A stretch of DNA of 31,313 nucleotides from a virus. This document shows, piece by piece, positions 7,510 to 16,033 of this stretch (position 1 is the stretch's first letter; the number at the start of each line of letters is the position of its first letter). The position numbers and the translations under genes are program-made. The stretch lies in the IMG/VR virus record IMGVR_UViG_3300005264_000036, positions 1 to 31,313 of that record. The stretch is one strand, 5' to 3'. Under the pieces are notes generated by a model, which was not told where the DNA came from, ran no database searches, and saw only the letters and a list, made by a program, of their open reading frames with translations.

Positions 7510-7532
7510 TATAAATTCTCCATTTTTTTATT

Positions 7533-7589
7533 AAAAAAAACCGTCCCAGTGCGTGTTATGTTTGACGATTCTCCGATACGAAGACGGCT
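7533..7589 (-). terminator. Terminator-like hairpin between leftward genes
   Basis: On the minus strand AGCCGTC at 7589 pairs with GACGGTT near 7540 (one G-U pair) and is followed by eight T. The loop is long, about 37 nt, so the structure is less certain than the others. It separates the gene at 7610-7834 from the rest of the operon. Confidence 0.55.
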
Positions 7590-7598
7590 ATAACCATA

Positions 7599-7613
7599 CA
7601 ATTTACTTGTTAT
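7599..7613 (-). repeat. 15-bp repeat next to a stop codon, copy 1
   Basis: The minus-strand sequence ATAACAAGTAAATTG occurs here and again at 7919-7933. In both places it lies at a stop codon and is followed by a terminator-like hairpin. Confidence 0.7.
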
Positions 7614-7834: not shown

Positions 7835-7855
7835 ATTAATATCTCTTTATTATTT

Positions 7856-7879
7856 TAAAAAAGGGGCTTTTCAGCCCCT
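7856..7879 (-). terminator. Rho-independent terminator in the leftward leader
   Basis: The stem AGGGGCT/AGCCCCT (7 bp) with loop GAAA is followed by seven T on the minus strand. It stands after the 54-aa gene and before the remaining leftward genes, so it must be read through for the integrase operon to be expressed from the upstream promoter. Confidence 0.88.
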
Positions 7880-7918
7880 AGGCTGTTCCTGTTTGTCGCA
7901 GGTGGTTTACCAGAACCT

Positions 7919-7933
7919 CAATTTACTTGTTAT
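7919..7933 (-). repeat. 15-bp repeat next to a stop codon, copy 2
   Basis: This is an identical copy of 7599-7613 (minus strand ATAACAAGTAAATTG). The stop codon of the 54-aa gene lies within it. The stretch between it and the terminator can fold further, with GTTCTG at about 7915 near CAGGAAC at about 7890. Confidence 0.7.
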
Positions 7934-11442: not shown

Positions 11443-11471
11443 ATTACTTCTCATTTTTTTTCTCCATTCAT

Positions 11472-11500
11472 AGCCAGTTTTGTTTACTGGCTTTTTTTTT
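11472..11500 (+). terminator. Rho-independent terminator after primase-helicase
   Basis: A perfect 7-bp stem AGCCAGT/ACTGGCT with a T-rich 7-nt loop is followed by nine T. It lies 30 bp after the stop codon and closes the replication operon. Confidence 0.9.
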
Positions 11501-11515
11501 GCTCTTTTTTAAAGA

Positions 11516-11565
11516 AATACCAAAAAATACCAAAAACTTTTAATTTTACCAAAAACTTCTAATAT
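11516..11565. repeat. Tandem iteron-like repeats, TACCAAAAACTTYTAATWT
   Basis: Two adjacent 19-bp direct repeats (11528-11546 and 11547-11565) differ at two positions. They are preceded by a shorter copy of the TACCAAAAA core at 11518. Tandem repeats directly downstream of the replication gene are the classic design of an iteron origin. Confidence 0.75.
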
Positions 11566-11612
11566 TTTAAGTCGTTTTAAACCAATGAATTAATATTGAG
11601 CTATAGGAATAA

Positions 11613-11649
11613 TACCATATTTTCATATATATTCATATTAAATATGGTA
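11613..11649. repeat. 10-bp inverted repeat in origin region
   Basis: TACCATATTT and its exact reverse complement AAATATGGTA are separated by 17 bp. The arms contain the TACCA core of the iterons, suggesting a binding site for the same protein in opposed orientation. Confidence 0.7.
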
Positions 11650-12080
11650 AACATAAATAATACTAATTTATAGAAGTTATTTGATTCTATACCAATTTTA
11701 TGAGCATTATTGCTATAGTAGATCCCTATTACTAGTTACTATATATACTATATATTATATATATATTCTTGATACTTAATATTATTGTAGTGTTTATTTG
11801 GTATAATGGTTGTAAGTTATTGAAATCAATAAAGTTAATGGCACCAAAAACAGCCAAAAAAAATGGTACTTAATATTCCAAATTTGGTTTTATGATATAA
11901 GTCTTTATTTTAATTAGCTTATTAAAGTTGATGTATTTGGTACTTTAGTTCTTAATTTGGTTGATTGCTTTCTTACTTTTCAATTGTTCCACAGGTGAGT
12001 AGATTTTTATATTAAGTCTTTATCTCTTCAATATTAAGATTATTTTGAAGTATTTTACAACATTATACCTATAATGTTAT

Positions 12081-12125
12081 AAGAAAAACCTAACTAATAT
12101 CATAATTTATTAGTTAGGTTTTCTT
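12081..12125. terminator. Bidirectional terminator-like hairpin
   Basis: The arms AAGAAAAACCTAACTAAT and ATTAGTTAGGTTTTCTT form a long stem (one extra A) over a short loop. T-rich tracts are present on both strands. It lies beyond the end of the reversed gene at 12168-12596 and would stop transcripts from either side. Confidence 0.8.
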
Positions 12126-12167
12126 GATTGTTTAATTTTTAGGTTTTTTTGGCATTTTGCCATTTTG

Positions 12168-12596
12168 TCAAGAGATTATTATCGTTGCCAACCATCCATC
12201 TTCGATATGTTCCACAACGTAAGGTGAGAGTTGAATCCCATTCAGCTTAGCAAATCTATTATTAGCTCCTCCCAATATCGTATATATATCTTCAATCCTA
12301 TCCAATATCCCCTCTGGATACCGTGCCGCTCCAGTTCCTGTTGGTGAGCTCGCTCTCATATACAGCCAGAGCTGAACAACCTCCTGTAAGTCATACAATC
12401 TATCATCTGTAGTATAACCTGTTGCTATCGAATCGCTAATATTTAGTGTGATGTTAGTAGTCTGCCGCTTAAGCATCTTGGTGGTAGATTCATAGTCTGC
12501 CTCTCCAAGAGTCTGAATAAACTCTATCTCTTCAAATGCTTCATCAGCTAACAGTAAACTCTTAATCAAATCGCTCTTGTCTTGTATCAATGACAT
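12168..12596 (-). CDS. Reversed-orientation hypothetical protein (tail terminator-like?)
   Basis: This 142-aa protein is encoded alone on the minus strand between two rightward modules. The ATG follows AGGAG by 5 nt. It starts with charged helices (DEAFEEIEFIQTLGEADYES), has a central DLQEVVQLWLYMRAS helix and ends EHIEDGWLATIIIS. Length, helix order and the C-terminal strand recall phage tail terminator proteins. The rightward head-tail operon lacks an obvious one, but the match is by feel only. Its orientation argues for an independently expressed accessory gene instead. Function remains open. Confidence 0.6.
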   Translation of the reverse strand: MSLIQDKSDLIKSLLLADEAFEEIEFIQTLGEADYESTTKMLKRQTTNITLNISDSIATGYTTDDRLYDLQEVVQLWLYMRASSPTGTGAARYPEGILDRIEDIYTILGGANNRFAKLNGIQLSPYVVEHIEDGWLATIIIS

Positions 12597-12739
12597 ATAA
12601 GCTCCTATATATAATCAGTTAAAAAAGTTTAGACGTGTTAATAATAACCTTATTGCTATTCAATCGCCTTAGTTAATGCGCCGTTCGTTCGCTCCCCCTC
12701 TGTGCCGTACCCTCTCGGCGGGGGGCTCTCTCTCGGCGA

Positions 12740-12821
12740 GCATTGGGTTTCGGCTGTTTGGCAGCTGCATTGTCCCTACGGGGCATTCTTATATTTTTTT
12801 TTTACGCCGAAAACCCAATGC
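12740..12821 (+). repeat. Long inverted repeat with internal hairpin and T run
   Basis: The left arm GCATTGGGTTTCGGC and right arm GCCGAAAACCCAATGC pair over 15 bp with one bulge. They enclose the palindrome GCAGCTGC and the hairpin TGTCCC-TAC-GGGGCA, followed by a long T-rich stretch. A transcript would fold into a compact two-level structure. Confidence 0.75.
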
Positions 12822-12916
12822 TAAATAAGAGCGTGATCATATCGTTTTCCTGGCAGCAGGTAAATGATAACCAACCATTTTCCTCTCGGTGGGCAATTGG
12901 TTTGTTAAATTATATT

Positions 12917-12930
12917 TGTTCCATGGAACA
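12917..12930. promoter_or_regulatory. Perfect 14-bp palindrome TGTTCCATGGAACA
   Basis: This exact dyad is centred at 12923/12924 in the non-coding region upstream of the 13098 operon. Such a perfect palindrome is typical of a dimeric repressor operator. I saw no second copy in the window. Confidence 0.55.
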
Positions 12931-13013
12931 TAGTAGGGGGGGTACGTCCCGAAATCTCTAACTCGAAAAAAATCTTTTCCCATCTTCCTAAAATATTTGA
13001 GATTTGAATTCGT

Positions 13014-13045
13014 TATAATATGCAGAAGTTTTATTTTAAAATAAA
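13014..13045 (+). promoter_or_regulatory. Promoter-like TATAAT followed by TATTTTAAAATAAA (copy 3 of 3)
   Basis: A perfect TATAAT at 13014-13019 has no good -35 partner. The palindrome TATTTTAAAATAAA follows at 13032-13045, 66 bp before the ATG at 13098. The order of -10 box then palindrome matches the replication operon at 8266-8300. Confidence 0.6.
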
Positions 13046-13097
13046 CTTTTACGTAATTGAGTAATTCTAAGTAAAAAAGCAAGGATACCGAAGAAAA

Positions 13098-13457
13098 ATG
13101 GCAAAATATGAAGTACCAAATATTATTCCAATCGAAAAAAGAGGGGAAGCGGCGAAATTAGCTAAAATCACCTTTGATGATAATGTTACTTTGTTTCGTA
13201 GTCAAGCTTCGGAAGGTTTATTAGAGCGTATCCCAGTTTTTTTTGAAGCTTTGGATGAGATGAAGGAAACTGCGGGTGCAAAATATGCGGCTGTGTTTAT
13301 TGATACTGCTGCTAAAATATTTCCGCGTTCTCAAGAAACAGAAGTTAAGTTTGATTTTACTCCTCCGGTAATCAATATGGGTGTTCGTGCTCCTGTTGGT
13401 AATGAAGATGAAAATAAATTATTAAAAAATAAGGTGCAGGAAGATGGAAAAATATAG
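13098..13457 (+). CDS. Hypothetical protein, first gene of rightward late region
   Basis: This 119-aa protein begins MAKYEVPNIIPIEKRGEAAK. It has helical stretches (LLERIPVFFEALDEMKETAG, then KYAAVFIDTAAKIF) and a Pro-rich loop, ending in a charged tail. A small-terminase or DNA-packaging role is conceivable, since no small terminase is recognised beside the large one, but the evidence is weak. It has its own promoter-like sequence and overlaps the next gene by 14 nt. Confidence 0.65.
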   Translation: MAKYEVPNIIPIEKRGEAAKLAKITFDDNVTLFRSQASEGLLERIPVFFEALDEMKETAGAKYAAVFIDTAAKIFPRSQETEVKFDFTPPVINMGVRAPVGNEDENKLLKNKVQEDGKI

Positions 13458-13790: not shown

Positions 13791-15356
13791 ATGGCTTACG
13801 TTTTTCCTAGCGAAGAAGCAGAAGCGGCTTGGGGTGCAATTACTGGCACTCTATCAGATCAAACAGATTTACAAACAGCTTTAGACAATAAATTATTATT
13901 TCTAAATGGGTTTGATTTACAAGATTCGGATACATTAGGCGATTTGGCTTTCAACGATGGAACTAGAACATTAAGTATTGCTGTGAAATCAGGAAAGCCA
14001 AATTATAGTTTTTGGGCTGATAACACAAAATTTACAAAAACAACAACAGCATCTGTAGTTATACCTGATACAACTGGTGTATATTATGTTTATTTTGACA
14101 ATTTAGGTGTTTTACAACATGTTACTGAAGCATTAATGCCGTTGACTGTAATATATGAAAATGCTTTAATTGCGTTGGTGTATTGGAACGCTACAGCAGG
14201 CACGGCTTTTGTTGGAGATGAAAGGCACGGTGTAAGAATGAGTTCTTCAACACATGCTTACAATCATAAAACTTTTGGTGCAAGATATGAATCACCGGGA
14301 TTAAATATTACTGGCTTAGAAGATGGAGAACCCGATTATACAAATACATCGTCGGGTGCTTTTTGGGACGAAGATATTAGACATGTAGTAGCATTACAAA
14401 CAACACACCCATTCATGTATAAATTAGGTACTGGTGGAGAGTGGACGGGCACGACACCTGATAGTAACGTTGGTTTTAAAAATAGTACATCAAACGTTGT
14501 TTTCAATGAAAATGATGGTGGTGATTGGAAATTAACAGAAAGCGGTACTTCAACTGATTATATGATTTATTTCTTTATAGCGACACCTGATATAAATGGT
14601 TTTCCTATTAAAAAAATTATTGGACAAAATGGTTATCCTAATAGAAGTTCGGCACGTGCAGCAGTAGAAACTGAAATATCAAATATTGTTATGGATGGTT
14701 TGCCTTCACCTGAATTTATATTTTTATATGCTTATATTGTAAAAAGAAATGGCGACCTTGAGAATTTAGCAGATGGTGGAACTTATGTAGATTTACGAAC
14801 TGTGAAAGGTGGTATAAGTGGAATATCAGGATCAGCAAGTTTAGCAGCAGACGTTACAACGGATGTAACAAATTTTAATAATATTTTAAGTGCTTCTGAT
14901 ACTAACGTACAATTAGCATTAGATACAATAGATAATAATGCTGCATTACAATCAAATGTATTAGAATTAGACAATGCAACAAGTTTTACTCCAGATGCCG
15001 ATTACGAACCAGCTACAAAAAAATATGTCGATGATAATATCTTAGATCCATCTTCAATAACTTATGATAGTAAAACATCAAATTATACTTTGGCACTATC
15101 AGATAAAGGCAAAGGTATTGCAATGAATTCATCATCCAATTTAACGGTTACAATACCAACAAATGCAAGCGTTGCTATTCCTATTGGGGATGTAAGGCCA
15201 TTTTCCAGAGAAGGTACAGGGACAGTTACTTTCACTGGTGCTGGTGTAACGATACAATCAAAAGATAGCAAAGTAACTATTGCAGGTCAATATGGTGAAG
15301 CTGTATTAAGAAAAAAAGCTACAGATACTTGGGCTCTGGCTGGGAGTTTGGAATGA
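13791..15356 (+). CDS. Tail fibre / receptor-binding protein
   Basis: This is a 521-aa protein. Near the N terminus, WGAITGTLSDQTDLQTALDNK (residues 14-34, given here as WGAITGTLSDQ and TDLQTALDNK) is a motif common in tail fibres. The body is beta-rich. Residues near 360-405 (NVQLALDTIDNNAAL, then PATKKYVDDNI) form a typical trimeric fibre stalk. The C-terminal 90 residues match a widespread fibre tip pattern: LALSDKGKGIAMNSSSN, VTIPTNASVAIPIG, VTFTGAGVTIQSK and AVLRKKATDTWALAGSL. It probably recognises the host surface. Codons ending in A are more frequent than in the virion genes, suggesting separate acquisition. Confidence 0.85.
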   Translation: MAYVFPSEEAEAAWGAITGTLSDQTDLQTALDNKLLFLNGFDLQDSDTLGDLAFNDGTRTLSIAVKSGKPNYSFWADNTKFTKTTTASVVIPDTTGVYYVYFDNLGVLQHVTEALMPLTVIYENALIALVYWNATAGTAFVGDERHGVRMSSSTHAYNHKTFGARYESPGLNITGLEDGEPDYTNTSSGAFWDEDIRHVVALQTTHPFMYKLGTGGEWTGTTPDSNVGFKNSTSNVVFNENDGGDWKLTESGTSTDYMIYFFIATPDINGFPIKKIIGQNGYPNRSSARAAVETEISNIVMDGLPSPEFIFLYAYIVKRNGDLENLADGGTYVDLRTVKGGISGISGSASLAADVTTDVTNFNNILSASDTNVQLALDTIDNNAALQSNVLELDNATSFTPDADYEPATKKYVDDNILDPSSITYDSKTSNYTLALSDKGKGIAMNSSSNLTVTIPTNASVAIPIGDVRPFSREGTGTVTFTGAGVTIQSKDSKVTIAGQYGEAVLRKKATDTWALAGSLE

Positions 15357-16033
15357 TTATCAGTTTAGCAGCAATAGTTTGTAGTAGTGAAAGTGGTGGG
15401 AGTACATCTGATCGGCTGTATTGCTGTGATAGAAATGCGGATAAAAATTATGAGATAGATATTGATACGTTAGCAACAATTAATACTGTAAATAGTCAAG
15501 GTGGTAATCCTTATGGTATTGGTGGAATATCAGATCGTTTATATAGTTGTGATTATACTACTCAAAAAAACTACGAGATAGATATTGATACACTAACAGT
15601 TTTAAATACCGTAGATAGTCCAGGTGTTTACCCAAGAGGCATTGGTGGTATTTCAGATCGTTTGTATAGTTGTGATTTTACTGCTCAAAAAAACTACGAG
15701 ATAGATATTGATACACTAACAGTTTTAAATACCGTAGATAGTCCAGGTATTTACCCAAGTGGCATTGGTGGTATTTCAGATCGTTTGTATAGTTGTGATT
15801 TTAACACCGATAAGAATTACGAGATAGATATTGACACATTAGCAACAATTAACACCGTCAATAGCCCTGGATCTGTTCCTTTCGGTATCGGTGGAATATC
15901 AGATAGATTGTATTGCTGTGATTATAATACTAAAAAGAATTATGAGATAGATGTTGATACATTGGCAACGATTAATACAGTAGATAGTCAGAGTACAGCA
16001 CCATCTGGTATTGGCGGATTGAAATTAAGTTAA
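15353..16033 (+). CDS. Five-repeat propeller-like protein (fibre tip or receptor binding)
   Basis: The start is taken at 15353, where ATGA overlaps the stop of the fibre gene; an ATG at 15329 is possible but lies within that gene. The 226-aa product has a short hydrophobic N terminus (MIISLAAIVCSS) and then five repeats of exactly 41 residues. Each opens SDRLY-x-CD, continues KNYEID-x-DTL and closes GIGG. Short repeats of this kind usually build beta-propeller blades. Coupling to the fibre gene suggests a host-binding tip subunit. Repeats 2 and 3 are nearly identical in DNA, so copy number could change by recombination. Confidence 0.75.
   Translation: MIISLAAIVCSSESGGSTSDRLYCCDRNADKNYEIDIDTLATINTVNSQGGNPYGIGGISDRLYSCDYTTQKNYEIDIDTLTVLNTVDSPGVYPRGIGGISDRLYSCDFTAQKNYEIDIDTLTVLNTVDSPGIYPSGIGGISDRLYSCDFNTDKNYEIDIDTLATINTVNSPGSVPFGIGGISDRLYCCDYNTKKNYEIDVDTLATINTVDSQSTAPSGIGGLKLS
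15413..16024 (+). repeat. Five 123-bp (41-residue) coding repeats
   Basis: Five in-frame units of 123 bp encode SDRLY(C/S)CD...GIGG(I/L). The second and third units are almost identical over more than 80 bp, whereas units 1, 4 and 5 have diverged in silent positions. The period was measured from the shared CTCAAAAAAACTACGAG starting at 15561 and 15684. Confidence 0.9.

Follow-up and report, generated by a model that had tools for sequence, protein, structure and literature searches.

A structured, GC-rich intergenic island upstream of a putative moron-like gene in a temperate, siphovirus-like phage

Upstream of the late operon of phage lambda lies a short structured stretch with a terminator, the pR'/6S RNA/tR' late leader, and the nut sites of the same phage combine a boxA with a hairpin, the boxB hairpin being 15 nt long. 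The GC-rich island analyzed here resembles the late leader in being a short structured stretch with a terminator-like element upstream of a late operon, but neither a Q-like gene nor a convincing plus-strand promoter was identified, and the late operon has a promoter zone of its own further downstream. Its likeness to nut resides in a boxA-like CGCTCTTA preceding a hairpin by a few nucleotides on the minus strand; in contrast to nut, the hairpin measures 84 nt, no N-like protein was identified, and read-through would enter the origin region. In Stenotrophomonas phage DLP4, a reverse-frame insert carrying YbiA, with a different GC content and its own promoter, is found in the virion module, and its genes were called moron genes (PMC6469090). 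As in the DLP4 unit, the gene flanking our island on the left is opposite to its surroundings, differs in GC and has its own terminator; its candidate promoters are consensus matches at chance level. Unlike the DLP4 unit, it is a single gene without a family match, and the region upstream of it is unusually structured.

The phage genome and the setting of the island

The window, by which we mean the whole 31,313-nt stretch of DNA analyzed, is IMG/VR virus record IMGVR_UViG_3300005264_000036. A 75-bp direct repeat is present at both of its ends, which indicates a complete circular assembly of ~31,238 bp (31.2 kb). The genome has a GC content of 34% (150-bp windows: mean 0.340, SD 0.056) and is that of a temperate, tailed, siphovirus-like phage encoding a terminase large subunit, portal, major capsid, neck and tape-measure proteins, together with an endolysin, a Xer-like tyrosine recombinase and a primase-helicase-like protein. 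A protein of near-identical repeats (SDRLYSCDFTAQKNYEIDIDTL...) encoded at 15329-16033 is probably a fibre or adhesin. The nearest known proteins share only ~25-37% identity with those of the phage. Alignment-led scans with the terminase and primase retrieved relatives at ~24-36% identity, at whose loci no other protein of the window was matched except for one weak tape-measure match, and a search of genomes with the integrase yielded eight distant relatives (30-35% identity). Protein-led searches of IMG/VR with gene 13098, the terminase, the capsid protein and gene 12168 returned no relatives, and no collinear relative of the phage was found in the protein-led and alignment-led searches.

The island sits between oppositely directed genes, namely 12168-12596 on the minus strand and, on the plus strand, gene 13098 (119 aa), with which the late operon begins. 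The late promoter zone on the plus strand, at 13014-13046, comprises a TATAAT at 13014 and the palindrome TTTATTTTAAAATAAA, the core of which is also found before the other two plus-strand units. The palindrome TATTTTAAAATA(A) occurs at 1275, 8285 and 13030, in all three plus-strand units ~55-70 nt before the start codon, and is probably a promoter or operator motif of the phage. On the other side, beside the primase-helicase gene, the non-coding region 11443-12167 (22% GC) carries 19-bp iterons TACCAAAAACTTNTAAT (repeated TACCAAAAA) and is likely to be the replication origin. The original prediction had entertained a second origin at the island; this is unlikely, the island being GC-rich and devoid of iterons, and the iteron-bearing region beside the primase gene making the better origin.

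Composition, folding and repeats of the island

Positions 12660-12835 form the GC-richest non-coding stretch of the genome. In 150-bp windows, GC content reaches its maximum of 0.56 near 12661-12815, compared with the genome mean of 0.340, and the sole equal window (21521) is coding; the abrupt GC-rich stretch that had been predicted here is thus real, and all the features named with it were found where they had been placed. Among the genome windows sampled, 12665-12824 displayed the lowest folding energy (z ~ -4.2 to -4.4), with a few other sampled windows, including terminator-like stems at 12020 and 2100, reaching a stronger folding z. Relative to dinucleotide-preserving shuffles, 12660-12835 yielded z -4.05 on the plus strand and -3.11 on the minus strand, whereas 12836-12950, with the palindrome and the third CTCTCGG copy, remained at chance level (z -0.99 plus, -0.46 minus). 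Structure beyond composition is limited to 12660-12835, the left part of the island as first described (12660-12930).

Two hairpins form the core of the left part and abut with no spare base between them. Hairpin A (12679-12738), seen in RNA and DNA folds, is built of an outer stem CGCCG / CGGCG, a middle stem GCTCCCC / GGGGGGC and a tip GCCG / CGGC. Hairpin B (12739-12822) is the 16-bp inverted repeat AGCATTGGGTTTCGGC / GCCGAAAACCCAATGCT around 51 nt, the arms of which (12739-12754 and 12806-12822) form 16 pairs with one base unpaired, in keeping with the 15/16-bp repeat originally predicted. No other inverted repeat of the genome offers, within 120 bp, a perfect arm of 12 bp holding at least five G/C, a class expected 0.03 times per shuffled genome. 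The hairpins carry G-U pairs on the plus strand and A-C mismatches at the same places on the minus strand. We rejected this bias as a sign of a plus-strand RNA, since it vanished against shuffles (z -0.7 to +0.3 for the strand difference); T-rich composition alone produces such an asymmetry, which therefore gives no acting strand. Folding of the integron attC type was dropped by eye, the arms beginning with TTGGGTT and not with the RYYYAAC of the attC rule.

The predicted internal GC hairpin followed by a long T run was recovered on the plus strand at 12771-12803 (TGTCCC-TAC-GGGGCA, then T10); the pattern is not above shuffled expectation, 0.8 terminator-like sites being expected by chance in the region scanned. 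Its stem at 12771-12785 is 6 bp long, and the T10 (12794-12803) begins only after 8 nt. Three plus-strand direct repeats, CCTCTCGGCGGG (12711-12722), TCTCTCGGCGAG (12729-12740) and CCTCTCGGTGGG (12882-12893), contain the three CTCTCGG copies that had been noticed, which are the only ones in the genome; any 7-mer occurred three times in 1.7% of island shuffles. The perfect 14-bp palindrome TGTTCCATGGAACA is likewise present, at 12917-12930; lying in the spacer of a promoter-like site on the minus strand, it is a candidate operator. Because 0.475 palindromes of this length with at least six G/C are expected per shuffled genome, it is weak evidence on its own. The boxA-like CGCTCTTA (12826-12833, minus strand), a motif picked post hoc, is the sole copy in the genome and lies 3 nt before hairpin B on that strand.

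Searches for homologues of the island were conducted at several levels. Rfam covariance models run over the window produced no match at the gathering score and, at a relaxed threshold, sub-threshold matches only; phage and plasmid searches likewise gave no island homologue, and the two-arm gapped pattern of the inverted repeat was absent from the viral and genome collections. The exact 16-mer of the right arm occurs at 39 loci in IMG/VR, which were discarded as relatives, there being no paired arm in the flanks shown and those checked resembling unrelated coding DNA. A single-sequence covariance model (R1) applied to 140-odd distant phage and genome loci matched only the window itself, and 392 genomes of one phylum gave small, chance-sized matches of 23-38 bp and no island homologue. 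Given that the nearest phages are only ~25-35% identical in conserved proteins, the absence of matches does not refute conservation of the island.

The neighbouring gene and readings of the island

Gene 12168-12596 encodes 142 aa on the minus strand, is preceded by the ribosome-binding site AGGAG and has a terminator of its own at 12085-12122 on the same strand (a perfect 15-bp stem, an 8-nt loop, then a T run). Its GC3 of 0.38 is the genome maximum, all other genes ranging from 0.12 to 0.33, and in codon fit it ranks among the bottom two. The gene thereby shares the foreign composition of the island, a likeness that the original prediction does not mention. As the product has no family match (its predicted structure, at pLDDT 36, is too poor for use), its accessory nature is read from composition and orientation. 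GC content is elevated from 12168 to ~12950 and falls away on both sides (0.22 left, 0.25 right); the rise from the gene into the island is not continuous, since an AT-rich spacer of 64 bp (GC 0.234) separates the gene start from the hairpins. No direct repeats of at least 8 bp were found flanking the unit formed by the gene and the island, and the searches brought up no relative in which the unit is seen to be inserted or missing. Two promoter-like sites are directed towards the gene on the minus strand, CCTACT-17-TATAAT at 12909-12937 (8/12) and, just right of hairpin B, TTTACC-17-TATGAT at 12836-12864 (9/12); both are consensus matches, of a kind expected by chance at this frequency in such AT-rich DNA.

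The reading that we tentatively place first takes the island as the control region, with promoter, operator and structured leader, upstream of an acquired moron-like unit that has the replication module on one side and the rightward structural operon on the other. Such a unit would be the simplest account of the shared foreign composition, the opposite orientation, the terminator of its own and the single intergenic control region. Transcription of gene 12168 would start right of the hairpins, at 12.83-12.91 kb, and the palindrome in the promoter spacer would act as an operator. The hairpins would belong to the leader of the gene or to its boundary with the late operon; formed in a long untranslated leader, they would influence how stable the transcript is or how the gene is transcribed or translated. 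In addition, the plus-strand hairpin and T10 may halt rightward transcription ahead of the late promoter at ~13.01-13.05 kb. An 8-bp pairing between the start of the minus-strand leader and the ribosome-binding site was rejected as a sign of translational control, since shuffles reach the same in 3.5-14% of cases, according to the stretch examined.

The same plus-strand hairpin and T10, with the late operon starting downstream at 13098 and a TATAAT at ~12610, could instead belong to a ~180-nt structured RNA that would start near 12.62 kb, end at the T10 (12803) and insulate or gate the late operon in the manner of the lambda pR'/6S RNA/tR' leader. The excess of folding agrees with a structured RNA, but nothing in strand, promoter or homologues singles one out. 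We regard this explanation as unlikely but worth retaining: the TATAAT has no acceptable -35 box upstream, the primase operon is already closed by its own terminator near 11.47-11.50 kb, the late operon has its promoter zone downstream, and the G-U asymmetry lends no support. A cis-acting RNA on the opposite strand, in which the boxA-like CGCTCTTA and the hairpins of a minus-strand leader would modify RNA polymerase or gate the moron gene under an operator of the host SOS type, appears very unlikely. The LexA box of Verrucomicrobia is reportedly TGTTC-N4-GAACA, a motif that TGTTCCATGGAACA, in a promoter spacer, fits exactly. This likeness concerns one site; as a putative LexA-type box, the palindrome is a possible host clue.

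That the island has no phage function at all, being repeat-like host DNA, a remnant brought in with the neighbouring gene or the product of a chimeric assembly, would agree with its foreign composition and with a right part structured no more than expected by chance. The nearly perfect preservation of the 16-bp stem and the assembly of the genome as a circle speak against this view, which we judge rather improbable. The confinement of the direct repeats to this region and the position of this GC-rich, unique stretch upstream of gene 13098, the product of which is predicted with low confidence (pLDDT 47, too poor for use) to consist of helices followed by a beta-hairpin, would suit a packaging site (cos/pac) or another locus recognized by a protein, for which the three CCTCTCGGYGGG repeats would be the binding sites. 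However, the large terminase gene (18335) is 5 kb away, gene 13098 matches no small-terminase family, no small terminase gene was identified in the phage, and two of the three repeats overlap hairpin A and may merely reflect it, while the 75-bp repeat at the contig ends indicates circular assembly and says nothing on packaging. A DNA site of this kind is, in our estimate, distinctly unlikely. Xer sites are short 11-6-11 dyads, and the integrase of the phage (5962-6852) is XerC/D-like (TIGR02224, 216 bits, which is below the model's own cut-off). In spite of its inverted repeats, the island, 6 kb from the integrase gene, lacks such a dyad, and a better one, TTACAACATTA-TACCTA-TAATGTTATAA, which resembles a Xer/dif core, is present at 12055-12082 and is a candidate attP for this enzyme. 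An attachment or crossover site in the island, the recombination site of the original prediction, is highly improbable.

If the hairpins act as RNA, they would represent a regulatory RNA not described before, from a lineage of phages without described close relatives. If the island is nothing more than the control region of an acquired gene, as in the reading that we tentatively favor, it would reflect ordinary modular phage evolution, conspicuous in the raw sequence.

Two further structured loci were noted elsewhere in the genome. A terminator between convergent units at 2116-2142 has a run of eight C as its loop (AGCCTATCTCCCCCCCCGAGATAGGCT, then a T run). At 7510-7613 and 7845-7933, two successive small early genes on the minus strand share identical last 15 bp (CAATTTACTTGTTAT), and each is followed by a structured stretch and a hairpin with a T run (e.g. 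GGGGCTGAAAAGCCCC-T6); these may be elements resembling terminators or small RNAs, arranged in tandem where the early operon begins.
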